Shown here piece after piece: positions 5,446 to 19,667 of a stretch of DNA of 20,283 bases (its first letter is position 1; each line of letters opens with the position of its first letter). The notes under the pieces are model-generated. The model saw nothing but the letters and a program-made list of their open reading frames with translations, did not search any database and was not told the DNA's origin. The position numbers were made by a program, and so were the translations under genes. The stretch covers positions 1-20,283 of IMG/VR virus record IMGVR_UViG_3300027784_000071; one strand, given 5' to 3'. Source of the stretch: a virus.

Positions 5446-6015
5446 ATGACACTGAAGAAGAAAGACGTTGTCCATGCCGCAAAGGAGCTTAACAAGGTGC
5501 TGGGCCTGGACCCGGAAATTGATACCGACCAGCCCAGAAAGCAGTTAGAGGAATTGGTAATAGAGGCCACGGAACTAATTGAACCAGCAGATGAGTTCTC
5601 AGAGCAGACTGACGCCGTTATCGCCGCACTTTTAGGAACCGGGGAAACCACACCTGAACCACCACCCGCACAGCCAGATGATTGGGATGAGGCAGTTAAC
5701 TCCCACACCCCAGAACCGGCACCAGAACCAGAACCGGCTCCAAAACCTAAAGAGGCACAGAAGGGTAAAAAAGGCACGTTCCCGCCCTCAATAGGTATTA
5801 CCAGAACAGAAGCCGCCGCACAAATACTACAGGGAAAAGATAAAATAACAATAACGGAGTGGGTAGCACAAACCGACGCGGCATATATAAATGAAGGGGG
5901 TTCTTCCAATACCAAGGAAAGCCGGTACTCAGTAAACATGGCTATCCGCGCGTTGCGGGGGTTCGGAGCAATAGAAGTAGAAGGGGAAACCGTGAAAAAC
6001 CTATTCAAAAAGTAA
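5446..6015 (+). CDS. Unknown protein with proline-rich linker and winged-helix-like C-terminal domain
   Basis: 189 residues; ATG 5446 follows AAAGGAGTG. It has three parts. The N-terminal helical acidic part (1-65) begins MTLKKKDVVHAAKELNKVLG and includes QLEELVIEATELIEPADEF. A Pro/Glu-rich linker (about 66-110) contains PEPAPEPEPAPKPKEAQKGK and is probably extended and flexible. The compact C-terminal part (about 115-189) has TRTEAAAQILQGKDKITITE, then WVAQTDAAYINEGG, then SVNMAIRALRGFGAIEVEGE. A helix, a Thr-led strand/helix, a second long helix and a final hairpin is a winged-helix pattern, so it may bind DNA. It is the first gene of the operon leading into the radical SAM cassette. It could be a regulator or a DNA-targeting adaptor for those enzymes; neither is shown. 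Confidence 0.7.
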   Translation: MTLKKKDVVHAAKELNKVLGLDPEIDTDQPRKQLEELVIEATELIEPADEFSEQTDAVIAALLGTGETTPEPPPAQPDDWDEAVNSHTPEPAPEPEPAPKPKEAQKGKKGTFPPSIGITRTEAAAQILQGKDKITITEWVAQTDAAYINEGGSSNTKESRYSVNMAIRALRGFGAIEVEGETVKNLFKK

Positions 6016-6032
6016 GGGAAAGGGGTTAACCC

Positions 6033-7061
6033 GTGAAAACTTATAAGTCCGCCTTGGGCATGAGGGGTGATATGTTATATTGCCCCCTTCCCCTCAGCAT
6101 AGACAGCTACTGGACATGCGAACCGAATTGCCTTCACTGTTATTCTCGCAGGATTAACCGCACATGGGGGGAAGACTTCCGTATGGCCGATGTAGAAGCT
6201 GTTAAGAAACAACTCCTCAGCGCCAAGGGCAAAAGCCCACTACACCAAGCCATACGTCAAAAGAAGACGTTGCGGTTAGGTAACAGAACAGACCCCTTCC
6301 AGAACTGTGAAAGGGAGTATGGGGTTTCTACCGCACTGACTAAGTTCCTTATGTCCCAAAAATGGGACACGGTGATACAAACTAAGTTCCCACAGCGCGC
6401 TTGGGAAATGACAGGGCTGGGAAAGTATAGCACCGTCATGGCTGTGATAATGGTAGGGCTGGAGGAGGATTGGCACACACTTGAACGGGAACAAACAGAA
6501 AACCCGGTTGAACGTATCAAGACTCTACAAAAGATTAAGGCTGCCGGGTTCCGTGTGGGTGTGAATGGGGAACCTTTTATTCCAGGCTACCACGGGGTGG
6601 AACAATTCCAGACTACGGTAAAATTGCTCAAGCAGCACGGTATAAACCGCTTCAATGTGTATAACCTTCACATCAACGACCTTGTATTAAAGAACCTCCA
6701 TGGCGCGGGGCTTGACATTGAGAAAATTTGGTATATGAATCAAGATGCCCCATGGAAGAAAACCCTGAAGAAGCTGTTAGCAATTGCTGACCGGCACGGC
6801 ATAATATTAGGTTGCCCGGACTTCGTGAACAGTGGTTGGGAAGATGTTCAGAAGAGTAATACTTGCTGTGGCCTTGACGTAGAGAACCCGTGTACTTGGA
6901 ATACGCACCACTTCAAGCGTGCTATACAACAGGGCAAAGACCCCTTACAAGTATGGGATGGCGTAGGGGACTATGAAGAAGGGGTTAAGATTATAGACGG
7001 TTCCCTCAAAGATATGTATACAATGAAGGATGTGTCAGGAAAGGGCTGGAAATTGCTATGA
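6033..7061 (+). CDS. Radical SAM protein 1 (SPL/COG1533-like)
   Basis: 342 residues from GTG 6033, behind GGGAAAGGGG. The radical SAM cluster motif CX3CX2C is CEPNCLHC (C29, C33, C36); these cysteines bind the [4Fe-4S] cluster that cleaves S-adenosylmethionine to a 5'-deoxyadenosyl radical. LRLGNRTDPFQNCE (80-93), IMVGLEEDW and GFRVGVNGEPFIPGYHG (172-188) fit strands of the partial TIM barrel in the spore-photoproduct-lyase-like group. Near the C-terminus is a second Cys group (C261, C278, C279, C287) with NTCCG, followed by an AIQQGKDPLQVW stretch. Related elements occur in the radical SAM genes at 7885 and 11754, so the three look like paralogs. Its stop overlaps the next start (ATGA). The family is firm; the substrate is unknown, with DNA lesion repair or base modification as the main options. 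Confidence 0.85.
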   Translation: MKTYKSALGMRGDMLYCPLPLSIDSYWTCEPNCLHCYSRRINRTWGEDFRMADVEAVKKQLLSAKGKSPLHQAIRQKKTLRLGNRTDPFQNCEREYGVSTALTKFLMSQKWDTVIQTKFPQRAWEMTGLGKYSTVMAVIMVGLEEDWHTLEREQTENPVERIKTLQKIKAAGFRVGVNGEPFIPGYHGVEQFQTTVKLLKQHGINRFNVYNLHINDLVLKNLHGAGLDIEKIWYMNQDAPWKKTLKKLLAIADRHGIILGCPDFVNSGWEDVQKSNTCCGLDVENPCTWNTHHFKRAIQQGKDPLQVWDGVGDYEEGVKIIDGSLKDMYTMKDVSGKGWKLL

Positions 7062-7879
7062 AAGAGATTATCCTCAACGACACCCCTATAGAAGAATATG
7101 ACGGCATTCACGTCAAGCGGGAAGACCTTTGTGCCCCTCCAGGCGCTCCGCCCTTCAGTAAGATAAGGGGATTGGTAAAACACCTGGAAAAGCTAAAACA
7201 ACAGGGGTTTGAGGGGGCAGCCTATGTAGAAACCTCAGTGAGTATGGCTGGGTGGGGGTTGGCTTGGGCTTGTTACCATCTGGGGCTGAAATGCCTGATT
7301 TTCAACCCTATATACAAAAACCCGGCCCCGCTGCTTCAGCATCATCGTTGGCAGTGGGAACGGTGGGGGGCTGAATTGGTAGACATCCCGGCAGGTAGGG
7401 CAAAAGTAAACTACTATACCGCCCAAAAACAGGTGCCTCAGGGGTTCCGGTTACTACCTTTGGGGCTGCCCCTATCGGAAACCCTTTCTGAAACCTATAC
7501 CGTGGCTCGGGATTGCGTTGAGAACTATCGTAGCATTGTGATATGCGTGGGCAGTGGAACGATTGCCGCTGGGGTATTTCAGGCAACCACCCCCGGGCAA
7601 ACCCTGTATGGGGTAATGTGCCGCTCCGGGGAGTTGGGTAGGAAAAGGCGGCACGTCATGGGGGATGTAATTTTCCCCGGCCTAAGTAAAGGGGAACTGC
7701 GGTTGATTGATAAAGGTTGGGAATACGCTCAACCTTGTGAAGTGAAAACCCCGTTCCCGTGCCATGATTATTATGACACTAAAGCATGGGAATGGCTGGT
7801 ACAAAATAAAGAATCGTTAGAACCCCCCATATTGTTCTGGAATATAGGGGCATTACCGGGGGGCTGGCCACATAAATAA
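7058..7879 (+). CDS. PLP-dependent fold-type II protein, ACC deaminase / D-cysteine desulfhydrase-like
   Basis: 273 residues, coupled to radical SAM 1 through an ATGA overlap. HVKREDLCAPPGAPPFSKIR (18-37) matches the start of ACC-deaminase and tryptophan-synthase-beta-like enzymes, where a Lys in a GxKxRKLE context forms the Schiff base with pyridoxal phosphate; K35 is the candidate. ETSVSMAGWGLAWACYHLGL (58-77) corresponds to the substrate loop and following helix. VICVGSGTIAAGVFQ (161-175) is a phosphate-binding Gly-rich loop. The ending ILFWNIGALPGGW matches the family's usual terminal FxHTGGxPxxF strand, with Asn in place of His. It is about 60 residues shorter than typical ACC deaminase but has both ends, so it looks minimal rather than truncated. 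Such enzymes deaminate, eliminate or exchange side groups of amino acids. In this cassette it may supply or trim an amino-acid-derived group, which is inference. Confidence 0.75.
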   Translation: MKEIILNDTPIEEYDGIHVKREDLCAPPGAPPFSKIRGLVKHLEKLKQQGFEGAAYVETSVSMAGWGLAWACYHLGLKCLIFNPIYKNPAPLLQHHRWQWERWGAELVDIPAGRAKVNYYTAQKQVPQGFRLLPLGLPLSETLSETYTVARDCVENYRSIVICVGSGTIAAGVFQATTPGQTLYGVMCRSGELGRKRRHVMGDVIFPGLSKGELRLIDKGWEYAQPCEVKTPFPCHDYYDTKAWEWLVQNKESLEPPILFWNIGALPGGWPHK

Positions 7880-7880
7880 A

Positions 7881-7885
7881 GGAGG
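7881..7885 (+). promoter_or_regulatory. Ribosome binding site that conflicts with the GTG start of radical SAM 2
   Basis: GGAGG occupies 7881-7885. The only standard in-frame start near it is GTG at 7885, which shares its first base with this site. The codon at the normal distance (8 bases, position 7894) is ATA. No other ATG, GTG or TTG appears in frame until about 79 codons in, so either the GTG is used at an abnormal spacing or ATA is the start. Confidence 0.6.
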
Positions 7886-9309
7886 TGTCAAAAATAGATT
7901 ATTCAGAACTGCGCAAAGAAGTCAGTAGAATAGTTCCGGGCCTTCGCCCATTTTTCAAAGCTACCGGTAAGGTTCAAGCGGTCAAGGAAAAAGGCAGAAA
8001 AAAAGACTACAGCCAATTCCACCTGCTTGACCAAGAGTGGAAGGAGCAAAGGCGCTTACTTAAGACTGAACAAATAAATACCTTCCTGGAAATATCCCTG
8101 CGTGCCCAAGCATGCCCTATGCCTTTTAATGGCGACGTATGGGACGGGTTGAATTGCCCGTTCGGTTGTATATATTGTTATGCTAATGCTTTTAGGGCCA
8201 GCTTATATACAGCCTTCTTTGATAATTCTAAGACCCTTGGACTGCGGCACTGTAACCCGGATTATTACAAAAGGGAAATGGAAAAAATGCTACCTTTAAG
8301 GGGCAAAGACCCCCACGGGCTTTACGACATCCGGAAAGCGTTCGCCATGGAAATACCACTGCGCTTGGGCATACGCTTTGAGGATTTTAATCCAGAGGAA
8401 CGCCGGGCCGGTATAAGCCTGGAAATGTTAAAATACTTAAAAGATATTGAATACCCGGTTATGATAAACACCAAAGCAGGCTTAGTAGGGGAGGATGAAT
8501 ACGTCAAAGCCCTTGGGGACAACCCTGCCGGTGCAGCGGTTCACATTACCCTTACATCATCTAACGACCGTGTAAACCGTAATATAGAACCGGGTGCTCC
8601 AAATTATTCAGAACGCATGACGGCGGCCAAAAACCTAATTGATGCGGGTGTGCGGGTTGTAGCAAGGATTGAGCCTTATTTATTCTTGGTTAATGATGAC
8701 CCGGATGAAGTGGAAAAGTATATTCAAGACATGAAAGAAATTGGGGTCAAAAACATAACCTTTGATACCTACTCTTACTCAGCGAACAACCCCGGTATAA
8801 GACAAGATTTTATCAACCGGGGCATAGACTTTGACCGTCTTTTTACAGCCGGGTGCGATAGCCAAAGGTTGGGCAGCACCCTATTAGGAGCCTACATGGA
8901 CAAGTTCCGGGAACACGGTATTTCCTGCTCTACGTTTGACTTGGGGAACGTTCCTAATAATGACCAGTCCATATGCTGCGAAGTAGGGGACTGGTTTAAA
9001 GGGGGCTGGAACTACGGTTGCACGGTCATGGCTGTGCGTTTCATTACCCAGAACAAAGGTAAACCGGTGACTTGGGGGCAATACAGAGATTGGGTTATGG
9101 AAAATGGGGGCTTTTTATCCCCGGGTTTGGAGCGGGAGGTTCATGAATTGTGGAATATAGAAGGGAGTAATGTGGCCTACAGCCCTATCTGGGCCGGGGG
9201 TGTGGTTCCCGTAGGATGGGATGAAGGGGGTGTGGTTTGGTCGTATATTCCAGCCTCAGATGAAAGGAAAGAACTAATAAACGCACTGAAAGTAGGGGTG
9301 AAGAAATGA
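7885..9309 (+). CDS. Radical SAM protein 2 (SPL/COG1533-like)
   Basis: 474 residues if GTG 7885 is the start; ATA 7894 is a possible alternative because the GGAGG site overlaps the GTG. The CX3CX2C motif is CPFGCIYC (C91, C95, C98) followed by YANAF. LRLGIRFEDFNPEERRAGIS (159-178), YPVMINTKAGLV (190-201), AAVHITLTSSNDRVNRNIEP (217-236) and VRVVARIEPYLF (256-267) are typical of spore-photoproduct-lyase-like barrels. ITLTSSNDRVNRNIEP resembles the lyase segment ISIsTxdpeLxrxlEP. The C-terminal third has SICCEVGDW (362-370), C379, NKGKPVTWGQYRDW (390-403) and a final GGVVPVGWDEGG strand region, features shared with radical SAM 3 and partly with 1. The stop overlaps the next start (ATGA). Radical chemistry is well supported; the substrate is not visible from the sequence. 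Confidence 0.87.
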   Translation: MSKIDYSELRKEVSRIVPGLRPFFKATGKVQAVKEKGRKKDYSQFHLLDQEWKEQRRLLKTEQINTFLEISLRAQACPMPFNGDVWDGLNCPFGCIYCYANAFRASLYTAFFDNSKTLGLRHCNPDYYKREMEKMLPLRGKDPHGLYDIRKAFAMEIPLRLGIRFEDFNPEERRAGISLEMLKYLKDIEYPVMINTKAGLVGEDEYVKALGDNPAGAAVHITLTSSNDRVNRNIEPGAPNYSERMTAAKNLIDAGVRVVARIEPYLFLVNDDPDEVEKYIQDMKEIGVKNITFDTYSYSANNPGIRQDFINRGIDFDRLFTAGCDSQRLGSTLLGAYMDKFREHGISCSTFDLGNVPNNDQSICCEVGDWFKGGWNYGCTVMAVRFITQNKGKPVTWGQYRDWVMENGGFLSPGLEREVHELWNIEGSNVAYSPIWAGGVVPVGWDEGGVVWSYIPASDERKELINALKVGVKK

Positions 9310-10154
9310 CAAGAATAAAAGCCAGTAGCAGGATAGAGGGTATTTTTGCCCACGCGGTAGCCATGGACAACCGGGGCATGAAGAATATAATTCACTGTGT
9401 GGGTTCCAGTGTTTATATACTGAATTTTGATTATAGCATGATATTGAAGTTTTCCCTGAGGAAGAGTGAGGTTTCCTTCCCTTCCCCTGTATCCTTTAAT
9501 GCTAACGAATATGATTCCCCGGACTTTTCCTTTAACGTAGATGAGCATGGTGGGGAGATAATATTCTATACCGCTTCAAAAGAATATGGTCGCAAAAAGA
9601 TTTGCCGGACACCCAAATCCGGGCCTGATGCTAAAGACGTTGCTAAACTATACCGGGGCTTGAAGAAGACCGGGGAACAAGGGCCATACTTATTTCACCT
9701 ATCAGAGGAGTGTGTGCCCCTATTGGAGGAAGGTCTTTCCCATACTGAAATATCGGTAGAAAATTCTAAGTTGGTATTGAGACAACGTAATGTATACACG
9801 GGAACGCTCATAGAAGTAGAGCCGTCTCGGGGCAAAGGGTTCTTTACAATAGATAATTTGCCTGAGAACCTTCCACCAATAGCACTAAAGACAAAGGACT
9901 TTATGAGCCTATTCGCTGCGCGTAAAGCTCTATCGTTTATACCTACCGAAGACTTCCTGATGGTAAAGGATTCCAAAAAAGAAGACTTTGAAGGTATATT
10001 AGCACTGTGTAAATATGATATGGTTATTGACCTTCACCAAGGTGAAGACGAGGAAGGAGGGGAGGACAATGGGCGGAAAGAGCCGGAAGAGAGGGCAGGT
10101 AAGCAAAAAGCTAATAGACCGGATAAAGCAAAACAACCCCAGCGGAGGAAGTAA
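9306..10154 (+). CDS. Unknown protein, possibly sliding-clamp-like fold, with basic tail
   Basis: 282 residues, ATGA-coupled to radical SAM 2. No family is recognised with certainty. The pattern is beta-rich with two similar halves. Residues about 15-100 have short strands (NIIHCVGSSVYILNFDYSMI; FSFNVDEHGGEIIFYTAS). Residues about 127-240 show helix then strands (LFHLSEECVPLLEEGLSHTE; KLVLRQRNVYTGTLIEVEP), then IALKTKDFMSLFAARKALSF followed by further strands. Helix-then-three-strands units, repeated, are what beta and PCNA clamps look like, so a divergent clamp fold is possible; a certain clamp is encoded nearby at 13298. The last 40 residues are highly charged and basic, ending KAKQPQRRK, and could bind nucleic acid. 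The final 86 bases overlap the next small gene in another frame. Alternatives include a scaffold for the flanking radical SAM enzymes. Confidence 0.65.
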   Translation: MTRIKASSRIEGIFAHAVAMDNRGMKNIIHCVGSSVYILNFDYSMILKFSLRKSEVSFPSPVSFNANEYDSPDFSFNVDEHGGEIIFYTASKEYGRKKICRTPKSGPDAKDVAKLYRGLKKTGEQGPYLFHLSEECVPLLEEGLSHTEISVENSKLVLRQRNVYTGTLIEVEPSRGKGFFTIDNLPENLPPIALKTKDFMSLFAARKALSFIPTEDFLMVKDSKKEDFEGILALCKYDMVIDLHQGEDEEGGEDNGRKEPEERAGKQKANRPDKAKQPQRRK

Positions 10155-10221
10155 TACTGAGGATGCCCCTAAAAAGAAGTCAAACTGCGCCCCGGTAAGG
10201 AAGGACGGGCCTTTGTTATGA
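10069..10221 (+). CDS. 50-residue basic protein overlapping its neighbours
   Basis: ATG 10069 is preceded by AAGGAGGGGAGG, a very strong ribosome binding site, which decides this start over a longer in-frame reading. The product begins MGGKSRKRGQVSKKLIDRIK and is rich in Lys, Arg, Ser and Asn, with a Pro/Gly-containing middle (NNPSGGSNTEDAPKKK); it is probably disordered apart from one short helix. It overlaps the 3' end of the previous gene by 86 bases in a different frame and its stop overlaps the next start (ATGA). It could be a small nucleic-acid-binding protein, or simply a coupling peptide that re-initiates ribosomes toward the gene at 10218. No family is recognised. Confidence 0.5.
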   Translation: MGGKSRKRGQVSKKLIDRIKQNNPSGGSNTEDAPKKKSNCAPVRKDGPLL

Positions 10222-10979
10222 TTATGAGTGAAGTGGTGGAATATATACAAAGGGCAAAACTGTTAGGAATCATACCCAATTTTTGGTTGAGTGAGGATTA
10301 CCTTGCCATACAAGATGCCCAGCTACGTAGCAACGGAAAGGTTATTTGGGTAGAAGAAGGGGAGTGGGCCATATTTCCGCCCTTGCCTATAGATTCCAAC
10401 GAACTCAAAAAGGAAAGTTGCCCGCCCCTTAAAGTGTGGAGTGACTTTGAAAACCTGTGCCCGGGAGATAATGCGGAATTCTTGGATTGGGAATACACCT
10501 ATGCCGCTGATAATTTCAACGCTATGGATGGGAAAAAATGGTCCACTTTCCGCAAAAATTCTCGCAAGTGGATAAAGGGTAGGGACTGGGACTATACGCA
10601 TCACCCTGCTCCAAATATTTGCGTAGAAATGTTATTACTGAAGTGGTTGGAAAGTAAACCAGTGGGTGAAGTAGTACACGACCAAGATTCAATGGTATGG
10701 TTCCTGTTTGAAAGTAAGCGGCGGGGGTTCCTATACGATAAGGATAAGTTGGTAGGAGTAAACGTGTGGGACAGCAATGACCCTTTATTGATGTATAGGT
10801 ATTGCGTCACAGACCCAGACGAGCCTTACCTTAACGAGTTTGCCCGGCTGCTATTTTACAGAAGTGTTCCTGGAAGGTTGGTGATTGATGGAGGTTGTTT
10901 AGGGAACCCGGGGTTGGAACGGTTCAAGGATAAGCTCAACCCCGTTAAAAAGCGGGCAATGTATTCAAGAGCGATATAA
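10218..10979 (+). CDS. Probable acyltransferase of the DUF2156 / GNAT-fold group
   Basis: 253 residues, start coupled by ATGA to the preceding small gene; ATG 10224 two codons later is also possible. Residues 87-120 (EFLDWEYTYAADNFNAMDGK, then KWSTFRKNSRKWIKG) match the pattern EYxYxxxxLxxLxGKKxxxKRNxxNxF of DUF2156 (phosphatidylglycerol lysyltransferase C-terminal-like) proteins. The C-terminus, VIDGGCLGNPGLERFKDKLN (222-241), matches that family's final NxExDLGxxGLRxxKxxxxP motif, with Gly-Gly-Cys where relatives have Arg-Glu-Asp-like residues. Middle strands WFLFESKRRGFLYDKDKLVG fit a GNAT-like sheet. Family members move acyl or aminoacyl groups from CoA or tRNA to amines and lipids. It is soluble and has no membrane domain, unlike MprF. 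Lying between two radical SAM genes, it may add a group to an intermediate they create; that is inference. Family assignment is moderately sure. Confidence 0.6.
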   Translation: MIMSEVVEYIQRAKLLGIIPNFWLSEDYLAIQDAQLRSNGKVIWVEEGEWAIFPPLPIDSNELKKESCPPLKVWSDFENLCPGDNAEFLDWEYTYAADNFNAMDGKKWSTFRKNSRKWIKGRDWDYTHHPAPNICVEMLLLKWLESKPVGEVVHDQDSMVWFLFESKRRGFLYDKDKLVGVNVWDSNDPLLMYRYCVTDPDEPYLNEFARLLFYRSVPGRLVIDGGCLGNPGLERFKDKLNPVKKRAMYSRAI

Positions 10980-10995
10980 AAAGGAGTGAGTAATA

Positions 10996-11457
10996 ATGAA
11001 ATACAAAGGAGAAAACTGGTCAGGGGCAGAAGTTAGAGCGTATTTCAAAGAGCGGTTCCCCGGCCTCAGGGTAACTACCAACAAGCCCTATAACAAAGGG
11101 GCATCTGCTATAGACCCGGACACGGGGGTGGTGTTACTTGAAGGCAAAAAAAATTTCATGCTGATAGACAAGGCTACGGCACCCGACACAGAAACCCTAA
11201 AGTTTGAATACCACAAATTAATAAACATGCCCCGAACAGTAGACTTGAAGAACCGCCCAGAGAAGTTATTCACGAAGGCTCTTTCCTATGTAATAGAAGC
11301 CATGGAACTGTCCGGTTTGAATCACCGCCCCCGTTTCATAGTTGGAGAGGACGGGTTCCCCACAAGCATCAAGTTGGGGGGCTTTGAATTCGACCTTCAT
11401 GGTATGAAAATTAAGGAGGGTACCAAGGGTGGACAAAGAAAAAAAAGAAAACAGTAA
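10996..11457 (+). CDS. Unknown protein of the radical SAM cassette
   Basis: 153 residues; ATG 10996 follows AAAAGGAGTG. It begins MKYKGENWSGAEVRAYFKER and continues into FPGLRVTTNKPYNKGASAID, then strand-rich VVLLEGKKNFMLIDKATAPD. A helical middle, PEKLFTKALSYVIEAMELSG, follows, then NHRPRFIVGEDGFPTSIKLG and a Lys/Arg-rich end (GGQRKKRKQ). The alternating alpha/beta pattern suggests a compact globular domain with a basic, possibly nucleic-acid-binding tail. There are no cysteines, no Walker motifs and no membrane segment. Its last 29 bases overlap the next gene in another frame. I do not recognise the family. Position between the acyltransferase-like gene and radical SAM 3 implies co-expression with that pathway. 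Confidence 0.7.
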   Translation: MKYKGENWSGAEVRAYFKERFPGLRVTTNKPYNKGASAIDPDTGVVLLEGKKNFMLIDKATAPDTETLKFEYHKLINMPRTVDLKNRPEKLFTKALSYVIEAMELSGLNHRPRFIVGEDGFPTSIKLGGFEFDLHGMKIKEGTKGGQRKKRKQ

Positions 11458-11779
11458 AAAGGAAAAGCGGTTACTGCCCGGGGACTTTCAGCGCAAGATA
11501 AAATATGAAAGCCTGGATGACAACCCAAAGGAAATAGAACAAAGCCGGGGCAGGTTATTTGAATTCCCTGAGGACTTAAAAGGGTTCCAATTTGAAGACC
11601 GGGACTTCCTGGTGTTCTACTTTGACAACAAGGAAGACTACACCACCGTGCTAAAACAATTCGGTATAGCAAAGCGGGGGCTGAGTCACCCGGAGTTAGA
11701 TACAGACAAGTTGGTCAAATTGGTTAAATGGTATAAGGCAGCCCGGGAAAGGGGTGAGAAGATTGAGGAGGAAGAATAA
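11429..11779 (+). CDS. Small acidic/basic unknown protein of the radical SAM cassette
   Basis: 116 residues from GTG 11429, which has AAGGAGGG 8 bases upstream inside the end of the previous gene. The N-terminus is extremely charged (MDKEKKENSKKEKRLLPGDF). The core reads DFLVFYFDNKEDYTTVLKQF, then GIAKRGLSHPELDTDKLVKL, and ends in Glu residues. The FDNKEDYxxxLxxFGI segment is reminiscent of the FxxxEDYxxFxxxI strand-helix unit that occurs in some phage DNA-modification-associated and ParB-like proteins; I consider this similarity weak. There are no cysteines or catalytic motifs. It overlaps radical SAM 3 by 26 bases, so the two are probably made together, and an accessory or partner role to that enzyme is plausible. 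Confidence 0.65.
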   Translation: MDKEKKENSKKEKRLLPGDFQRKIKYESLDDNPKEIEQSRGRLFEFPEDLKGFQFEDRDFLVFYFDNKEDYTTVLKQFGIAKRGLSHPELDTDKLVKLVKWYKAARERGEKIEEEE

Positions 11780-13268
11780 TAACGGGGGCCAAACGCAATA
11801 CTTGGAAATATGTGAGGCTTGCGGGGTTTGTAAAAGTGTAGATGTTCCCCCGGGAACGCTGTGTGCCTCTTTAAGTAAACAAGCCCGGATACAGTTTGAA
11901 TACCCGGAAACCTTCCCACAAAACTATGGGGGGTGCCGGTTCTCTTCTGACGCATTTGATTGTGCCATACCTATAGCAATAGACAGTCACTCCGGTTGCT
12001 CTTATAATTGCCTTTACTGCTTTTCCAACAACCTTCAAAGGGCATTTGACCGCAACAACAGCATACTAAAGATTGCGCAGGAAGGGGGTTCCCTATATAA
12101 GGAATGGCCTATTAAGCAGCTGGAAAAGTTCTTGGCCCGGGAATATCAAGATGAACAAAGTCAGGCCATGTATACTTTAATGGACCGTGGTGCCCCAGTA
12201 CAATTAGGGGCATTGGGAGACCCCTTTGATGACTTGGAAATACACAGCGGCTGGGCCAAGAAGGCTATTCCCTTGTTTATAAAATACAAACAGCCCGTAC
12301 GCATAAGCACTAAAGGGGGCAAGGCGCTACAAAACAAAGAATACCTACAGCTTATTGAGCAAAGCCCGGAACAATTTTGGTTCGCGTGGAGTATTATATG
12401 TAACGATGATGAAAGGATATCAAAGGTGGATATAAATGCCCCGGTAACTTCTGAGCGGCTACAAGCAATGAAGCAGCTCACCGATATGGGGAGCCGGTGT
12501 AGCTTGAGGTTCCGGCCATTCCTGCCGGGGTTGAGTGATAGCTATCCCGGGGAACCGGAGGCATGGCGGGTGCTAATAGAGCGGGCACATGAAGCCGGAG
12601 CTGAGGCGGTAAGTTTTGAATACATCTTTTTATCTTCCTTTCTTACTCCCCGGCAAAAGGCTATGTATCAGCTGATGTTCCGTGCTATGGATTGGCCCGA
12701 CTTCGGTGAATGGTGGAATTCCCAAAGTAACCCAGCAGAGGCTTGCCGCAGGGCCACCCGGGATTACAAGCATGATATGACCAAAAAAGTCTACGACACT
12801 TGTAAGGGCTTGGGTATGCGGTTCGGGATAAGCGACCCACATTTCAAGGAACTTAACGATACCGGCTGCTGTTGCGGTATGCCGGAAGAGGATGAGTGGT
12901 TCGGTAACTGGAGCCGCCGCCAAACAACGGAGGTTCTGGTTCAAGCACGTAGGGCTTACGAAAAGGGTGAACCCCGCTTATTCACTTATAATGACTGGCG
13001 CCCCGAGTGGGCTCATAGGGTACCCCTTACGACTATGGTTAGTGCCAGCAACTGGCATAATTACCGCCGCAAAAAGTTCAAAACATTCGGAGATAAAATG
13101 AGGGACATATGGAATAATCCTAAAGCTGCCCGGGGGCCATATCAATACTTCGGCAAAGTCCTGGTACCCGTAGGGAAAGATCGCCACACTGATGACCTCA
13201 TATATGAGTATCAACCTTGGTATTCGGGGAAGGAAAAAAAGACAATATACAAAAGCCTTACCCAGTAG
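11754..13268 (+). CDS. Radical SAM protein 3 (SPL/COG1533-like) with extra N-terminal Cys cluster
   Basis: 504 residues if GTG 11754 is the start; TTG 11763, with AAAGGGG 8 bases upstream, is equally plausible. The radical SAM motif is CSYNCLYC (C82, C86, C89). LGALGDPFDDLEIHSGWAKK (151-170), PVRISTKGGKAL (181-192), FAWSIICNDDERISKVD (210-226) and CSLRFRPFLPGLS (249-261) are barrel strands like those in proteins 1 and 2. An additional N-terminal group CEACGVC plus C37 (C20, C23, C26, C37) could bind zinc or a second Fe-S cluster. The C-terminal region has TGCCCG (370-375), EKGEPRLFTYNDW and KVLVPVGKD, elements shared with radical SAM 2. Its gene ends 29 bases before the sliding clamp start, with no promoter between, so it is tied to replication. 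The substrate is unknown. Confidence 0.85.
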   Translation: MRRLRRKNNNGGQTQYLEICEACGVCKSVDVPPGTLCASLSKQARIQFEYPETFPQNYGGCRFSSDAFDCAIPIAIDSHSGCSYNCLYCFSNNLQRAFDRNNSILKIAQEGGSLYKEWPIKQLEKFLAREYQDEQSQAMYTLMDRGAPVQLGALGDPFDDLEIHSGWAKKAIPLFIKYKQPVRISTKGGKALQNKEYLQLIEQSPEQFWFAWSIICNDDERISKVDINAPVTSERLQAMKQLTDMGSRCSLRFRPFLPGLSDSYPGEPEAWRVLIERAHEAGAEAVSFEYIFLSSFLTPRQKAMYQLMFRAMDWPDFGEWWNSQSNPAEACRRATRDYKHDMTKKVYDTCKGLGMRFGISDPHFKELNDTGCCCGMPEEDEWFGNWSRRQTTEVLVQARRAYEKGEPRLFTYNDWRPEWAHRVPLTTMVSASNWHNYRRKKFKTFGDKMRDIWNNPKAARGPYQYFGKVLVPVGKDRHTDDLIYEYQPWYSGKEKKTIYKSLTQ

Positions 13269-13280
13269 AATAAAAAATGA

Positions 13281-13287
13281 AAAGGAG
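13281..13287 (+). promoter_or_regulatory. Ribosome binding site selecting GTG 13298 for the sliding clamp
   Basis: AAAGGAG here lies 10 bases before the in-frame GTG at 13298. The upstream ATG at 13277 precedes this site and has no good ribosome binding site of its own, so the longer reading, which would add MKRSCSV, is less likely. Confidence 0.7.
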
Positions 13288-13297
13288 TTGTTCGGTT

Positions 13298-14317
13298 GTG
13301 AAAATCAACAAATCAGATTTGCAAGGCGCGTTGGAAAAGGTAAAGCCGGGGCTGGCCAACAGGGAATTAATTGAACAGTCTACAAGCTTCGCCTTCATGG
13401 GGGACAGGGTTGTTACTTATAATGATGAAATCAGTATATCACACCCGGTAGAAGGGCTGAATGTAACCGGGGCCATCAAAGCTCAGGCGCTTTATGCCTT
13501 CCTCAGTAAAGTAAAGCGGGAAGAGATTGACGTAGAATGGGAAGAAAATCAAGTTGTAATCAAGGCCGGTAAGTCTAAAGCGGGGTTGGTATTTGAGCAG
13601 GAGGTAAGGCTACCAGTGGAAGAGGTGGGGGAAATTGGCAAGTGGAAGAAGCTCCCCGCAGATGTATTAGACGGGTTAAAGTTCTGCTACCCATGCTGTT
13701 CTAAGGATATGAGTCGGCCCATTCTAACCTGTGTTCATGTTGAAGAGGATAAAGTGGAAGCGTCAGACTCCTACCAGATTGTAAAATATACGCTGGGCAA
13801 AAAGGTTCCTGTCAAGCGTTCATTAATACCTGCCGCAGCGGTGAGGGAACTACTAAAATATGACGTCAAAGAAGTGGCGGAAGGGAGTGGTTGGTTACAC
13901 TTCAAAACAGAAGATGGAACGGTATTCTCCTCACGGGTATTTGATGGGGACTACCCAGAAGTAGACGAGTTCCTTGCGTTTGAGGGGGTGGAAATACCTT
14001 TCCCCAAAACAGCCTCTTCCGCCCTTGAGCGGGCACAGGTGTTCTCAAAGAGTGATTTCAGCACGAATGATGTGGCTGTGGTAGTAGTTGAGGTGGCGGA
14101 GGGTGAGATTAAGTTTACCGCTCAGGACGAATACGGATGGTTTGAGGAAACAATAAAGACAAAATACAAAGGGGAGGCTGTCAGGTTTACCACCAGTGTA
14201 GAATTCTTAATCAACCTATTGGAGCAATCCCCGGCCTGTATATATGGTGAGGACAGGATTAAGTTTACCGGGGAGAATTGGGAACATGTAGCAGCAGCTA
14301 CAGCGGGCAGGGAGTGA
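13298..14317 (+). CDS. dnaN: DNA polymerase III beta-type sliding clamp
   Basis: 339 residues from GTG 13298. The N-terminus VKINKSDLQGALEKVKPGLA matches the beta clamp's first strand-helix unit. Three repeats of the clamp fold are visible: domain 1 to about 110; domain 2 from KLPADVLDGLKFCYPCCSKD to about 235, with RPILTCVHVEEDKVEASDSY, the highly recognisable G/RPxLxxVxxxxxxxxAtDxyr segment; domain 3 from about 236 to the end. RVFDGDYPEVDEFL matches the clamp RLIDGxFPdYxxvi motif. The protein would encircle DNA as a dimer and tether the polymerase encoded downstream. It is slightly shorter than bacterial DnaN (about 366-380). It lies 4 bases before the uracil-glycosylase/exonuclease gene and two genes before the polymerase domain. 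The call is strong; the exact partner is inferred from synteny. Confidence 0.88.
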   Translation: MKINKSDLQGALEKVKPGLANRELIEQSTSFAFMGDRVVTYNDEISISHPVEGLNVTGAIKAQALYAFLSKVKREEIDVEWEENQVVIKAGKSKAGLVFEQEVRLPVEEVGEIGKWKKLPADVLDGLKFCYPCCSKDMSRPILTCVHVEEDKVEASDSYQIVKYTLGKKVPVKRSLIPAAAVRELLKYDVKEVAEGSGWLHFKTEDGTVFSSRVFDGDYPEVDEFLAFEGVEIPFPKTASSALERAQVFSKSDFSTNDVAVVVVEVAEGEIKFTAQDEYGWFEETIKTKYKGEAVRFTTSVEFLINLLEQSPACIYGEDRIKFTGENWEHVAAATAGRE

Positions 14318-14321
14318 TTAG

Positions 14322-15548
14322 GTGAAGGGCTTTTTTAATATAGAACAGACCCAGACCAAAGGCGGGGAAACTAAAGGCAATTCCTGCGCCTCCTGTGGGC
14401 TTTACAGGTTTGCCTTAACTCCAAAGATGGAGCCATACGGAGGGTTCAAAAAAGGTATTATGGTGATTGGGGAAGCTCCCGGTGAGGATGAAGACCGGCG
14501 GGGCAGACCATGGCAGGGCAAGATGGGCAGGGTTTTGCAAAGAAAATACAAGCAACTCGGGTTGGACTTGTTTGAGGATTGTGTGAGTCTGAATGCCGTG
14601 AACTGCCACCCCACCGATAAAAAGGGGGCAAACCGGGGTCCAACCGACCAAGAAATTGCCTGCTGCCGGCCAAAGGTTATGCGTATCATAGAGCAATACC
14701 AACCTGAAATAATTATACTACACGGGGGGGTTCCTACTACCTCTCTCATAGGGCATAAATGGCGCGGGGACTTCGGCGGTATAATGAAATGGCGAGGTTG
14801 GACTATCCCAGACAGGGAATATAATGCTTGGGTTTGCCCAACCTTCCACCCTTCCTTTATCGAACGGCAGGAAGGGGCCAGTGAAGCGGAAGTAATTTGG
14901 GCAAGGGATTTGGAACAAGCCTTTTCCCGGCAAGGGGTTCCTTTTCCTAACCGAGGGGAACCGGAAGCGTGTGTTGAGGTAAGTAATGATATAGAGGGGG
15001 TCTTAATGAAGCTGCTGGACCACCCATACATGACGGCCTTTGATATTGAAACCACGGGACTGAAGCCCTATAACACAGACGCTCATAAAATAGTTACAAT
15101 TTCCTTCTGCCAGAGCCCTGATAAAGCATACGCAATACCTTTCCCTACTGAAAAGAAGCACCTGCGCATATTGAAAACACTATTGAAAAGCCCGGGTGTG
15201 CCTAAGATAGCGGCCAATATGAAGTATGAGGACAACTGGTTACAGGTATTGTATGGGATAAAGGTTTACCCGTGGTTGTTTGATACTATGCAGGCGGCTC
15301 ATATATTAAACAACCACCCCGGTATAACAAGCCTGAAATTCCAGAGTTATGTAAGGTTTGGGGTGCTGGGTTATGACGGTGAGGTTTCCCCTTACCTGAA
15401 AAGCGGTAACTCTCACGGGGTGAATAGAATCACGGAATTGGTAGAGAACGAAGAATGGTTTCAAAAACTATTACTTTATAACGGGGTGGACAGCCTAATG
15501 ACTTACAGATTAGCCATATCACAAATGCGGGAGTTGAACCTATTATGA
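14322..15548 (+). CDS. Family-4 uracil-DNA glycosylase fused to DNA polymerase I-type 3'-5' exonuclease domain
   Basis: 408 residues from GTG 14322, behind GGAGTG. Residues about 20-205 are a family-4 (Fe-S) uracil-DNA glycosylase. CASC is at 22-25; IMVIGEAPGEDEDRRGRPWQ (46-65) holds the water-activating and uracil-binding motif 1; NAVNCHPTDK follows at 91-100. IACCRPKVM, then EIIILHG and PTFHPSFIE (173-181), supplies the family HPS loop. C22, C25, C114/C115 and C172 are candidate cluster ligands. Residues about 235-405 are a DEDD exonuclease: FDIETTGL (240-247; D241, E243), NMKYEDNW (299-306; D304) and YNGVDSLMTYRL (386-397; D390), the Exo I, II and III motifs of Pol I proofreading domains. 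The gene ends in ATGA overlap with the polymerase domain gene. So the exonuclease that normally belongs to the polymerase chain is attached instead to a base-excision enzyme. Both domain calls are strong. Confidence 0.9.
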   Translation: MKGFFNIEQTQTKGGETKGNSCASCGLYRFALTPKMEPYGGFKKGIMVIGEAPGEDEDRRGRPWQGKMGRVLQRKYKQLGLDLFEDCVSLNAVNCHPTDKKGANRGPTDQEIACCRPKVMRIIEQYQPEIIILHGGVPTTSLIGHKWRGDFGGIMKWRGWTIPDREYNAWVCPTFHPSFIERQEGASEAEVIWARDLEQAFSRQGVPFPNRGEPEACVEVSNDIEGVLMKLLDHPYMTAFDIETTGLKPYNTDAHKIVTISFCQSPDKAYAIPFPTEKKHLRILKTLLKSPGVPKIAANMKYEDNWLQVLYGIKVYPWLFDTMQAAHILNNHPGITSLKFQSYVRFGVLGYDGEVSPYLKSGNSHGVNRITELVENEEWFQKLLLYNGVDSLMTYRLAISQMRELNLL

Positions 15549-16918
15549 AAACTCAAGCCACAACAGCGGATGCCTATAAACTATTTCATGACGGGGTTCA
15601 GGCACTGGCCCGGGCCGAGCGGGAGGGCATAAGGGTTGACGTGGACTACTGTTCTCGGAAGAAAACGCACCTTGCCCGGAAGATTGAATACTTTCATAAA
15701 CAACTGGAACAGACAAAGCTATACCGGCAGTGGTGCCACATATACAAGGATAAGGTAAACATCCACAGCAATCACCAACTGTCCAGAATACTATACCATA
15801 CTATGAAAATAGAGCCTACCAAGACCACAGAAAGTGGTCAGGGTTCTACCGATGAAGAAGTGCTAAGCCGGTTAGGGGTTCCCGGGCTGGAACTAATCCT
15901 GAGAATCCGCAAACTCGCTAAGATAAAAAGCACCTACCTGGAAGCCTTCGTAAGGGAGCAGTATGGGGGTTACATTCACCCATCCTTTAACTTACACACC
16001 GTTCGCACCTATCGCTCCAGCTCAGCAGACCCTAACTTCCAGAATATCCCCAAGCGGGATAAGGAGGCAATGAGGATATGCCGGAGGGCCTTGTTGCCCA
16101 GGCCGGGGCATATGTTAGTAGAGGCTGACTTTTCCGCCTTAGAAGTAATGATATCAGCGTGCTACCATAAAGACCCTACTATGATGGATTATCTCAAGGA
16201 TAAGAACGCCGACATGCACCTTGATATGGCCAAGCAAATATTCATGTTTGACAGCTTAGATAAGACCCTTCCCCCATACGCACTACTTAGGCAAGCCGCC
16301 AAGAATGGGTTTGTGTTCCCTCAATTTTATGGTGACTACTACGGGAACAACGCCTTCTCTTTATGCGAATGGGTAAAACTACCTACTGGGAAATGGCAGA
16401 CCGGGCAGGGCATTACCCTCCCAGATGGGACGTATATATCAACTCACCTACGAAAGCACGGTTTGCGCAATTTTGACCAGTTTATGGAGCATATAAAGCA
16501 GGTGGAAGATGACTTCTGGGGCAGGAGGTTTCGCGTATATAGCAGCTGGCGAAAAAGTTGGGTGGAGAAATATCGTAAGCGGGGTTGGCTGAAGATGCAT
16601 ACCGGGTTTGTATGCTCAGGTATAATGAAGAAGAACGAAATTATTAATTACCCTATTCAGGGTTCAGCCTTCCATTGCCTACTGTTCACCTTTACAGAAC
16701 TGGACAAAGTTATGGAGCAGCAAGGGTGGAAGTCAAGACTGGTGGGACAAATACATGACTCAATTATTATGGATGTATACCCGTCAGAACTGCCCACAAT
16801 AAAGCAAGAAATCAACCATATCGTAAGTGAGAAACTACCAGAGGCCTGGAAATGGATTATTGTGCCCCTTGAAATTGATGTGGACGAATATGAAATAGAC
16901 GGGCCTTGGATAGCTTAA
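15545..16918 (+). CDS. Family-A DNA polymerase, polymerase domain only
   Basis: 457 residues, coupled by ATGA to the exonuclease gene. Residues 1-140 form the thumb (including DKVNIHSNHQLSRIL and GQGSTDEEVLSRLG, both typical of Pol I). HTVRTYRSSSADPNFQNIPK (151-170) is the template/primer-binding TGRLSSxxPNLQNIP motif. Motif A is VEADFSALE (192-200; D195). Motif B, the O helix, is RQAAKNGFVFPQFYG (249-263; R249, K253, Y262), one residue longer between the Lys and the Tyr than in E. coli Pol I and containing a proline. NYPIQGSA is at 368-375, and motif C is QIHDSIIMDV (402-411; H404, D405). A segment around 277-310 is an insertion relative to E. coli Pol I. All catalytic residues are present, so it should be active, with proofreading supplied by the adjacent separate protein. 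Confidence 0.93.
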   Translation: MKTQATTADAYKLFHDGVQALARAEREGIRVDVDYCSRKKTHLARKIEYFHKQLEQTKLYRQWCHIYKDKVNIHSNHQLSRILYHTMKIEPTKTTESGQGSTDEEVLSRLGVPGLELILRIRKLAKIKSTYLEAFVREQYGGYIHPSFNLHTVRTYRSSSADPNFQNIPKRDKEAMRICRRALLPRPGHMLVEADFSALEVMISACYHKDPTMMDYLKDKNADMHLDMAKQIFMFDSLDKTLPPYALLRQAAKNGFVFPQFYGDYYGNNAFSLCEWVKLPTGKWQTGQGITLPDGTYISTHLRKHGLRNFDQFMEHIKQVEDDFWGRRFRVYSSWRKSWVEKYRKRGWLKMHTGFVCSGIMKKNEIINYPIQGSAFHCLLFTFTELDKVMEQQGWKSRLVGQIHDSIIMDVYPSELPTIKQEINHIVSEKLPEAWKWIIVPLEIDVDEYEIDGPWIA

Positions 16919-16937: not shown

Positions 16938-17876
16938 ATGACGTTACACCTAAAATACCGGCCAGACACCCTTGATGAGGTGGTAGGTAATAAAGATGTT
17001 ATTCAAGTATTGAGAGACCAACTAACTGAGGGGGCAAAGCAGCCTCTATCTAAGAGCTTACTATTTCACGGGCCAACGGGTTGCGGCAAAACTACCTTGG
17101 GCAGGATTATAGCGCGGGAGCTTGGGGCAAAGGGGAATGACCTGCGGGAAATTGACTCTGCGGACTTCCGGGGCATAGAAACTATTCGGGATATTCGTAA
17201 GCAAAGTTCTTACAAACCATTAGAAAGCCCTTGCCGGGTGTGGATACTTGATGAGGTTCACCGCTTAACCGGTGACGCCCAAAGTGCTCTGCTAAAAGCC
17301 TTAGAGGACACACCTTCACATGTTTACTACATCTTGTGTACCACCGACCCACAGAAACTACTGCCCACTATAAAGGGCCGGTGTGCCCACTACCAAGTAA
17401 GCCCTTTAACCGATAAAGAAATGAAAAGATTACTCCGTCACGTGGTTAAAGCGGAAGAGGACTCCCTGCCCAAGGAAATATATGACCAGATAACTCAGGA
17501 CAGCATGGGCTACCCAAGGAACGCTTTACAGGTGCTGGCTCAAGTATTGGCGGTAGAAGAGGAAAAAAGAATGGAGGTAGCAAGGCGCACCGCAGAAGTC
17601 CAGTCAAAAACTATTGAGCTCTGCCGCGCTTTAACCCAAGGAACGTCTTGGGGGGCTGTAGCTCAAATATTAAAAGGGTTAAAGGAAGAGGAACCGGAGC
17701 AAATAAGGAGGGCTGTGCTTGGTTACTGCCAATCAGTTTTATTAGGACAAACGAGGAATGATGGGGTGGCCGGGGTGATGGAGGAGTTCATTGAACCCTT
17801 CTATAATTCAGGGTTCCCGGGCCTCACCCTTGCCTGCTACAATGTTCTATTCGGTGGGGAGGATGTGCCTTTTTAA
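16938..17876 (+). CDS. Clamp loader ATPase (DnaX / RFC-like)
   Basis: 312 residues; ATG 16938 behind AAAAAGGAGGG. The N-terminus LKYRPDTLDEVVGNKDVIQV (5-24) is the classic DnaX/RFC box (YRPxxFxxvvGQexv). Walker A is GPTGCGKT (45-52), Walker B WILDEVH (102-108), and sensor/arginine-finger motif GRC (147-149), replacing the usual SRC. Residues about 160-215 form the lid domain (LLRHVVKAEEDSLPKEIYDQ; GYPRNALQVLAQV). The DnaX zinc cysteines between Walker A and B are absent, making it closer in size to phage or archaeal small loader subunits. It would open the clamp encoded at 13298 with ATP and load it at primer ends. Only one loader gene is visible, so it may act as a homo-oligomer or with an unrecognised partner. 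It is the last gene before promoter C. Confidence 0.92.
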   Translation: MTLHLKYRPDTLDEVVGNKDVIQVLRDQLTEGAKQPLSKSLLFHGPTGCGKTTLGRIIARELGAKGNDLREIDSADFRGIETIRDIRKQSSYKPLESPCRVWILDEVHRLTGDAQSALLKALEDTPSHVYYILCTTDPQKLLPTIKGRCAHYQVSPLTDKEMKRLLRHVVKAEEDSLPKEIYDQITQDSMGYPRNALQVLAQVLAVEEEKRMEVARRTAEVQSKTIELCRALTQGTSWGAVAQILKGLKEEEPEQIRRAVLGYCQSVLLGQTRNDGVAGVMEEFIEPFYNSGFPGLTLACYNVLFGGEDVPF

Positions 17877-18424: not shown

Positions 18425-18561
18425 GCTTTACAGAAGAGTTGGCAATCACAATATTCATAGCAATACTACTACTCCCCATTTACGTGATTGTGCTCTCTAT
18501 GAGCGCTTATATTGGCAAGGTGTGGGCAATAAAATTATTATTCAAAAAGGAGAGATTATAA
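18421..18561 (+). CDS. 46-residue membrane peptide
   Basis: ATG 18421 overlaps the previous stop (ATGA) and has AAAGGAGGG just upstream; the stop TAA at 18559-18561 overlaps the next start (TAATG). The product begins MSFTEELAITIFIAILLLPI and continues with YVIVLSMSAYIGKVWAIKLL and FKKERL. One hydrophobic helix of about 20-24 residues (about 8-30) is followed by a basic cytoplasmic-type tail. Coupling on both sides and a good ribosome binding site argue that it is a real gene despite its size. No family is recognised. It is the third tiny membrane protein in this replication region, after those at 4903 and 5213. Confidence 0.65.
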   Translation: MSFTEELAITIFIAILLLPIYVIVLSMSAYIGKVWAIKLLFKKERL

Positions 18562-19667
18562 TGGCGAAAAAAGTTAAGAAGAAAAGGTTCAAAGGGACAG
18601 TATCAAGGAACGCGGCAAAGCAAGCCCGTGGTACTCAGCTTGGGCATTTAAGCCTACCTAAGGGGTTGCCTGTATTCAAGGAGGAGCCGGGTTCCCGGGT
18701 CAGCCTGGATATTATACCGTATGTCGTTACAGATTCACAGCACCCAGATAAAGATGAAGAATACGAAATTGCGGTTGAAGGCAGCCTGTGGTATAAGCGG
18801 CCTTACTGGTTACACCGTAACATTGGGCCGGAGAACCAAGCGGTAGTCTGCCCTGTCAGTGCCGCACAAAAGTGCCCTATTTGCGAATACAGGGCTCAAC
18901 TATTGAAAGACGGGGCCGACTGGCAGGATGAATCTGTAAAAGCCCTGAAGGCATCTATGCGTAACCTTTACTTCGCAGTTCCTAAAGGCGCAAAGAAGTA
19001 TGAGGAAACACCCCATGTCTGGGATATAAGTCAGTTCCTTTTCCAGACTAAGCTGAATGAGGAAATCGGGGAAAATGAAGATTATGAAACCTTCCCCGAC
19101 CTGGAAGACGGTTACACCCTTCAAATAAGGTTCAGTGAAGAGAGTTTAGGGGCCAACAAGTATGCTGAAACAAGCCGGATTGATTTTAAGGAGCGGGATA
19201 AACCCTACAAGGAGTCCATAATAGATGACCTGCCTTCCTTAGATGCCCTGCTGGACGTGCCGTCTTACAAAGCGGTAGAAGCTATGTTCTTTGGGGGGCT
19301 TGACCAAGAAGAAGCGGAAGAAGAGGTTGAAGTAACCGATGAAGATGCGGTTGAAGCGGAGGAGGAAGAAGAGCAGCCAAAACCGGCACGCAAGCGTAAA
19401 CCAGAACCCGAGCCAGAGGATGATGATGAAGAGGAAGAAGAGGAAGAGGATGAAGAGGAAGAGGAAGAGGAAGAGGATGAAGAAGAGGAAGAGGTAAAGC
19501 CTAAAGAAAAAAAGAAAGAACCGCCGAAAAAAGAGCCCAAAGGCAAGGGCAAAGGTAAAACTGAAAAATGCCCTCACGGTCATACGTTTGGAGAGGACTG
19601 TGAAGAGTATGATGAATGTGACGAATGTGAGCTGTGGGAGAAGTGTATGGACGCTTCAGAAAAGTAG
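18561..19667 (+). CDS. Single-stranded DNA-binding protein, T4 gp32-like, with long acidic tract and C-terminal Cys cluster
   Basis: 368 residues from ATG 18561 (AAAGGAGAG upstream, one-base overlap with the previous stop). The basic N-terminus MAKKVKKKRFKGTVSRN may mediate cooperative binding as in gp32. The core (about 45-245) has LHRNIG (H85), VVCPVSAAQKCPICEYRAQL (C97, C105, C108): His-X11-Cys-X7-Cys-X2-Cys, close to the gp32 zinc ligands His64, Cys77, Cys87, Cys90. MRNLYFAVPKGAKKYE and GYTLQIRFSEESLGANKYAE are OB-fold-like strands. Residues about 260-318 are overwhelmingly Glu and Asp, followed by a Lys/Pro-rich hinge (PPKKEPKGKGKGKTEK). The final segment CPHGHTFGEDCEEYDECDEC onward to C362 is a second metal-binding-looking module. 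It would coat single-stranded DNA at the fork and interact through its acidic tract. Assignment is strong for the core; the tail function is inferred. Confidence 0.85.
   Translation: MAKKVKKKRFKGTVSRNAAKQARGTQLGHLSLPKGLPVFKEEPGSRVSLDIIPYVVTDSQHPDKDEEYEIAVEGSLWYKRPYWLHRNIGPENQAVVCPVSAAQKCPICEYRAQLLKDGADWQDESVKALKASMRNLYFAVPKGAKKYEETPHVWDISQFLFQTKLNEEIGENEDYETFPDLEDGYTLQIRFSEESLGANKYAETSRIDFKERDKPYKESIIDDLPSLDALLDVPSYKAVEAMFFGGLDQEEAEEEVEVTDEDAVEAEEEEEQPKPARKRKPEPEPEDDDEEEEEEEDEEEEEEEEDEEEEEVKPKEKKKEPPKKEPKGKGKGKTEKCPHGHTFGEDCEEYDECDECELWEKCMDASEK
19416..19492 (+). repeat. Low-complexity purine-rich (GAA/GAG/GAT) tract
   Basis: About 77 bases consisting of G and A, with T only in GAT codons, encode the acidic run of the SSB. 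The long polypurine/polypyrimidine asymmetry could form triplex DNA and can slip during replication, so its length may vary between relatives. It explains the open but meaningless frames on the opposite strand here. Confidence 0.8.

Follow-up and report, generated by a model that had tools for sequence, protein, structure and literature searches.

IMG/VR virus record IMGVR_UViG_3300027784_000071 (the window, i.e. the whole stretch of 20,283 b analyzed here) carries at 6033-13268 eight genes that lie on one strand and occupy 99% of the DNA. The question raised by this locus is what radical S-adenosylmethionine (SAM) enzymes, a pyridoxal phosphate (PLP)-dependent enzyme and an aminoacyltransferase-like protein do together inside a phage replication operon. 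An initial annotation had proposed that the genes modify bases in phage DNA or, alternatively, repair lesions. The data described below make it likely that the module is a replisome-coupled DNA base hypermodification pathway. We infer that an amino-acid-bearing base is reached without hydroxymethyl-deoxyuridine (hydroxymethyl-dU, hmdU), by radical chemistry and probably with use of aminoacyl-tRNA, the order of steps being much less certain, and this route probably differs from any so far described.

A profile search with the second radical SAM protein (rSAM2) identified 74 IMG/VR loci and three contigs from metagenome-assembled genomes of Bacillota, Bacteroidota and Thioalkalivibrio, and the survey set of 78 loci corresponded to 61 clusters at 90% DNA identity. 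A recurring order was observed across these loci: helicase, rSAM1, slot, rSAM2, PCNA-like clamp, aminoacyltransferase, beta clamp, uracil-DNA glycosylase (UDG)/exonuclease, polymerase and DnaX. When counted over non-redundant clusters having enough flank, rSAM2 was preceded by rSAM1 or a variant of it in all 41 clusters and followed by the PCNA-like clamp in 46 of 49, the aminoacyltransferase in 46 of 47 (the window itself scoring as a false miss for both, with rSAM3 taken as its last rSAM2) and the beta clamp in 40 of 41. The helicase was present in 31/32 clusters and the PLP enzyme in 19/41 testable ones. Reverse scans gave the same picture, with rSAM1 lacking rSAM2 in only three of its 59 loci, each cut at a contig end, and the aminoacyltransferase truly lacking it in three of 68 (L165, L179 and L180). 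Co-occurrence of the set, a check named beforehand in the initial annotation, was borne out: the set recurs in approximately 60 distinct contigs and is accompanied by replication genes in every one. These data show a core of four genes, encoding the predicted rSAM1, rSAM2, PCNA-like clamp and MprF/FemX-fold aminoacyltransferase, located between helicase and polymerase genes and accompanied by a variable tailoring slot. The cassette was confirmed and extends further than could be seen in the initial annotation, and rSAM3 and the genes at 10996 and 11429 fall outside its conserved core. Their sporadic occurrence would fit a chance gathering of metabolic genes in one phage, an explanation refuted by the co-occurrence, with core order kept in approximately 60 distinct contigs at identities down to approximately 46%, and which we consider virtually eliminated.

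The CX3CX2C motif of the three radical SAM proteins called in the window was found once in each (CEPNCLHC in rSAM1, CPFGCIYC in rSAM2 and CSYNCLYC in rSAM3), and all three share a CC pair near the C terminus. The Pfam Radical_SAM model was matched above cut-off by rSAM2 (E 1e-9) and below cut-off by rSAM1 and rSAM3 (both 0.009), and NCBIfam PA0069/Rv2578c models matched all three (1e-11 to 1e-16) at scores far under the equivalog cut-offs (58 versus 360 bits and 50 versus 430 bits). The three do not constitute one set: rSAM1 (59 IMG/VR loci, cysteines invariant in an 11-row alignment) and rSAM2 (mostly 46-77% identity among its loci, 8-row alignment) belong to the core, whilst rSAM3 gave no close relative in a single-sequence scan of viral_contigs and is otherwise represented by a weak homologue in L085. 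Profile comparison relates rSAM3 to rSAM2 (hhalign prob 98.6) and indicates that both core proteins are remotely akin to gp53 of phage M6 (hhalign prob 96.8 and E 2.8e-10 for rSAM1; E 4e-7 for rSAM2). No match to rSAM2 was found among sequences of solved structures.

Variation within the radical SAM proteins was also observed. A variant stands in for rSAM1 in seven clusters, mostly beside a DUF362 protein (PF04015 3e-35); the variant, with a CSMGCWWCFC motif, occupies the rSAM1 place upstream of rSAM2 in L047, L050, L067, L071, L094, L099, L102 and L103, and together with the DUF362 protein it possibly represents a second chemotype. The rSAM2 gene is split or interrupted in 9 of 61 clusters. 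Inteins break it within the [4Fe-4S] motif: in L007 (8685-11122) and L083 (8730-11128) the insertion precedes the third Cys of CX3CX2C, and L087 (8292-11128) and its near-copies L088, L089 and L107 have two inteins, ahead of the first and third Cys. In L055 a QueE-like radical SAM protein with the look of the 7-deazaguanine pathway is encoded between helicase and rSAM1 (5839-6573), so that DNA modification in this phage may follow two routes. An unverified record (L117; PP337211.1, Escherichia phage ERS-1) contains, at four places, a broken stretch like M6 gp53, which looks like sequencing error or contamination.

The slot is occupied in the window by a PLP-fold enzyme, a call corroborated by its Pfam PALP match (E 2e-10). 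This non-obligatory protein is related to M6 gp52 along its whole length (35%); it is 35% identical to Mesyanzhinovviridae enzymes over 99% of the query, identities in full-length comparison are 35-39%, and the PLP lysine is conserved (Lys35 in SKxRG, invariant in the alignment), so that by sequence it is assigned as a gp52-type tailoring enzyme. A single-sequence scan returned no relatives and a profile scan then gave 73 loci, amongst which those with at least three core genes never carry M6-type genes, and vice versa. Four M6-type loci with the amino acid:DNA transferase AADT and/or gp53 (L248, L270, L274 and L280) encode a second radical SAM protein weakly like rSAM2 and are possible intermediates between the two pathways. 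In the PLP tree core enzymes stand beside M6-type ones, 24 of them on one fully supported side and five, encoded upstream of rSAM1 (L079, L081, L086, L091 and L282), on the M6 side. The tree was not accepted as proof of exchange between the pathways since a single core clade was not rejected (p-AU 0.169), and such exchange is only suggested by the sequences.

Other slot genes encode a DUF362 protein, a flavin adenine dinucleotide (FAD)-dependent DAO-like enzyme (L040, L056, L057 and L076) with 28% identity (E 8e-40) to Ab18 ORF10, an aldo-keto reductase (PF00248, 15 loci), a methyltransferase-looking family with no Pfam match (approximately 18 loci) and an amidoligase (PF12224, L061/L062), which in L061 (8523-9440) adjoins the PLP gene and may offer a further way of attaching amines. 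In Ab18 the neighbourhood reads AADT, ORF10, acetyltransferase, kinase, kinase helical domain and ThyA-like. The PLP and FAD kinships indicate that the module shares two families of tailoring enzymes with the known pathway, and because the slot enzymes are kin of thymidine hypermodification enzymes, a pathway acting on DNA bases is the best reading. Exchangeable enzymes for amino-acid tailoring around an unchanging core are what a hypermodification pathway is expected to show.

Known amino-acid-type thymidine hypermodifications begin at hydroxymethyl-dU. In 2021, Lee et al. reportedly gave gp53-type radical SAM proteins an isomerase role and the PLP enzymes a decarboxylase role. The DNA of M6 carries 5-(2-aminoethyl)dU (PMC6449724), and its radical SAM and PLP chemistry is covered in the same source and in PMC11946847. 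The M6 gp52-type PLP gene lies between AADT (PF18724 1e-46) and a radical SAM protein like spore photoproduct lyase (SPL), near HMUDK (5-hmdU kinase) genes. Amongst records of module relatives, AADT was detected in 0 of 12 and in 0 of 27 long ones of 36-172 kb (M6 control 2e-48), nor was it found in any of the 61 clusters by a local hidden Markov model. The 5-hmdU DNA kinase helical domain (PF18723) was detected in none of the 27 (M6 control 1e-57) and the ThyA family (PF00303, dUMP hydroxymethylase) in 0 of 12 and 2 of 27, whilst a search of 28 records for TET/JBP dioxygenase (PF12851), another possible source of hmdU, was silent, as was its positive control. The earlier observation that no hydroxymethylase or base kinase is visible in the window thus extends far beyond it. 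The possibility that the module is an M6 cluster truncated at a contig end was ruled out by these long relatives without AADT or kinase domain and mostly without ThyA.

A true variant of the M6 pathway, with hmdU, kinase and AADT supplied from another contig or the host, would account for the gp52-type PLP and Ab18-type FAD enzymes common to both and for the remote kinship of the radical SAM proteins with gp53. We regard it as very unlikely given that AADT and the HMUDK domain are missing from 27/27 long records despite positive M6 controls, that ThyA reaches only 2/27 and that the AADT and kinase genes are normally adjacent in M6-type phages. To our knowledge, hosts do not encode AADT.

The 253-aa core protein (ACT) had been described as DUF2156-like, and this is supported by a Pfam PF09924 match in a relative (4e-5, L034) and by its predicted fold. 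The AlphaFold2 (AF2) model (pLDDT 95.7) aligned by VIA-align with DUF2156 protein 2hqy at Z 22.5 over 248 residues, and with MprF (Z 16.1), Sbb17/Sba18 (Z 13.0) and FemX (Z 12.3), from which the protein is predicted to have the tandem GNAT fold of the DUF2156 type. Sbb17 and Sba18 are streptothricin aminoacyl-tRNA-dependent synthases, and the best-studied relatives of this fold move amino acids from tRNA. The modelled fold suggests that the amino-acid donor of ACT is probably aminoacyl-tRNA.

Four small unknown proteins had been noted in the cassette. Of these, the 282-aa product of 9306-10154 is not small and is predicted to be a second sliding-clamp-like protein, additional to the polymerase clamp; the 68-aa open reading frame (ORF) at 10015 is doubtful, with a single relative seen (L031/L083, 46%, E 4e-9). 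Scans of Pfam, PHROG-type and NCBIfam libraries gave no family match for the 282-aa protein or for the 153-aa protein at 10996. The clamp prediction is based on an AF2 model built with 50 relatives (pLDDT 87, pTM 0.80), on Foldseek, in which the top 50 matches were nearly all PCNA (E 4e-9), and on VIA-align scores against RAD9 of the 9-1-1 clamp (Z 16.7, rmsd 3.4, 214 aligned), PCNA (Z 15.8) and E. coli beta-clamp domains 2-3 (Z 15.8). In L179 and L180, which have no rSAM genes, a 206-aa protein that is clamp-like by eye only is encoded directly upstream of the aminoacyltransferase (7379-7999 in both); a clamp search in these and L165 had no working positive control. Clamp plus transferase may thus predate the rest of the module.

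These data also bear on lesion repair, in which SPL-like radical SAM enzymes would reverse UV photoproducts or thymine damage at the fork with the second clamp as a 9-1-1-like repair platform. The CX3CX2C enzymes are indeed SPL-like, RAD9 is the best structural match of the second clamp and a UDG domain is present in the operon. However, no window protein matched Pfam SPL (PF20903), and the one relative that approached it (L037, E 0.02) scored 14 bits against a cut-off of 27. One enzyme suffices for a photolyase, whereas two radical SAM proteins and an aminoacyltransferase are conserved here, and PLP and FAD amino-acid enzymes in exchangeable slots, akin to base-hypermodification enzymes, fit poorly with repair. 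This alternative from the initial annotation consequently found little support, and we think it very unlikely.

Returning to base hypermodification, we infer that DNA is the substrate, thymine the likely base and aminoacyl-tRNA the amino-acid source, with enzymes tethered by the clamp and the steps ordered as follows. The DnaX-like loader of the phage would load the second clamp, which in turn would tether the enzymes to nascent DNA. One radical SAM enzyme would activate an inert base C-H, most likely the thymine 5-methyl because the radical SAM proteins are SPL-like and the slot enzymes come from thymidine pathways. The aminoacyltransferase would deliver an amino acid, probably from aminoacyl-tRNA, a role taken in M6 by AADT with free amino acids, and the second radical SAM enzyme would rearrange or join it through C-C or C-N bonds. 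Slot enzymes would then trim the product, the gp52-type PLP enzyme of the window decarboxylating or eliminating to leave a short amine. Hydroxymethyl-dU, base kinase and AADT would not be required. More speculatively, and with the odds against it, these phages may aminoacylate their DNA, an MprF-fold transferase borne by its own clamp moving amino acids from aminoacyl-tRNA to bases activated directly by radical SAM enzymes with no hydroxymethyl base, kinase or pyrophosphorylase. If true, charged tRNA would for the first time be linked to the chemistry of DNA.

The base-modification reading of the initial annotation is thus favoured by co-occurrence and slot-enzyme kinship, its chemistry remaining conjectural, and several points weigh against it. 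All relatives are metagenomic contigs; INPHARED contained no member isolate, only weak partial radical SAM matches in unannotated fecal phage clones. As the relatives are contigs without stated completeness, the lack of hmdU genes draws its strength only from the number of records. Acyl-CoA is used by many enzymes of the GNAT fold, and fold kinship is no proof of aminoacyl-tRNA use. ACT occurs without rSAM genes in two lineages (L165; L179/L180), indicating that it can serve apart from them and may have a role of its own, and small molecules or RNA could be the substrates of the tailoring enzymes. In a rival reading the target of the module is a protein of the replisome, a tRNA or a small molecule rather than DNA bases, for instance by a protein aminoacylation switch on the clamp; in its favour, the substrates of MprF/FemX/ATE1-like transferases are lipids, peptides, antibiotics and proteins, and the transferase and clamp genes persist in those lineages. 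Two radical SAM proteins and amino-acid tailoring enzymes of DNA pathways are nevertheless present in most members, no precursor-peptide gene is evident, and linkage to helicase, clamp and polymerase is strict. We therefore judge a non-DNA substrate unlikely, though less so than repair or an M6 variant.

The features of the window are listed in Table 1. All cassette genes are open on the same strand as annotated, and their reported linkage was confirmed, with overlaps of the ATGA type at 7058, 9306 and 10218, longer ones at 11429 and 11754, and gaps of 5 to 16 b elsewhere. Pfam matches likewise placed a beta-clamp C-terminal domain, UDG-exonuclease and polymerase downstream. The UDG and PolA-type 3'-5' exonuclease fusion, with its polymerase domain in a separate gene, is kept in most relatives, and the gene at 18492-19667 encodes a single-strand-binding-like protein that has a long acidic tract of low complexity and a cluster of Cys residues at its C terminus. 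PADLOC gave nothing useful on the module.

Table 1. Predicted genes of the module and of the replication genes that follow it in the window.
Feature	Coordinates	Strand	Evidence and remarks
rSAM1, core radical SAM enzyme	6033..7061	+	CX3CX2C at residue 29; NTCCG near C terminus conserved
PLP-dependent fold-II enzyme, M6 gp52 relative, non-obligatory slot gene	7058..7879	+	Homology, phrog_7093 1e-45
rSAM2, core radical SAM enzyme, best-conserved member	7885..9309	+	CX3CX2C at residue 91; ICCEV near C terminus
PCNA/9-1-1-like second sliding clamp, two-domain, core, 282 aa	9306..10154	+	Predicted fold
68-aa ORF, doubtful gene	10015..10221	+	140 b overlap with clamp gene; one relative
ACT, DUF2156/MprF/FemX-fold aminoacyltransferase-like protein, core, 253 aa	10218..10979	+	Predicted fold; 68 loci
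153-aa accessory protein, no assigned function	10996..11457	+	Relatives in ~10 loci
116-aa protein, no assigned function	11429..11779	+	No relative among 78 loci
rSAM3, third radical SAM protein, window-specific accessory	11754..13268	+	CX3CX2C at 82; CCCG at 372
Polymerase (beta-type) sliding clamp	13277..14317	+	C-terminal domain PF02768 7e-5, below cut-off
Uracil-DNA glycosylase domain fused to PolA-type 3'-5' exonuclease	14322..15548	+	PF03167 1e-19, PF01612 1e-10
DNA polymerase A, polymerase domain	15545..16918	+	PF00476 2e-52
DnaX-like clamp loader ATPase	16938..17876	+	PF13177 8e-23, PF00004 2e-15

If base hypermodification is the correct reading, the module would represent a second, radical-based entry into amino-acid-decorated DNA, its modification enzymes would ride their own clamp at the fork, and new nucleosides are predicted in many uncultured phages. 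Relative to the known pathway it retains two tailoring families, drops the entry steps and adds its own clamp and an aminoacyl-tRNA-transferase fold. Like M6 and its Yuavirus kin, it pairs a gp52-type PLP gene with one for an SPL-like radical SAM enzyme within a cluster of phage DNA-metabolism genes; unlike them, it is without AADT, 5-hmdU kinase and (in 25/27) a ThyA-family protein, its two core radical SAM proteins are only remotely like gp53, and an MprF-fold aminoacyltransferase and a PCNA-like clamp are added. The 28% identical FAD-dependent DAO-like enzyme in four loci is shared with the AADT/FAD/GNAT cluster of Abidjanvirus (Ab18), where its neighbours are AADT, kinase and ThyA-like genes, as against rSAM1, aldo-keto reductase and rSAM2 in the module. 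With the PA0069/Rv2578c family and SPL the module shares CX3CX2C and SPL-like sequence, although its radical SAM scores are far below equivalog cut-offs and its gene context differs from that of SPL. The predicted ACT fold resembles MprF/A-PGS/L-PGS, DUF2156, FemX and Sbb17 over its full length (Z 12 to 22), whereas the phage protein, of 253 aa, has no membrane flippase domain and is encoded in a replication operon. Similarly, the predicted two-domain clamp fold is that of PCNA and 9-1-1 (RAD9) clamps (Z 15 to 17), at approximately 10% identity, but in the phage a beta-type clamp is also present and the protein is an obligate neighbour of rSAM2 and ACT. Finally, the CmoA/CmoX/CmoY 5-carboxymethylcytosine system (PMC12783734) equips a phage DNA base with a handle other than hydroxymethyl and then attaches an amino acid, as is proposed for the module, using a carboxy-SAM (Cx-SAM) methyltransferase and an ATP-dependent ligase where the module described here would use radical SAM enzymes and an aminoacyl-tRNA-transferase fold.

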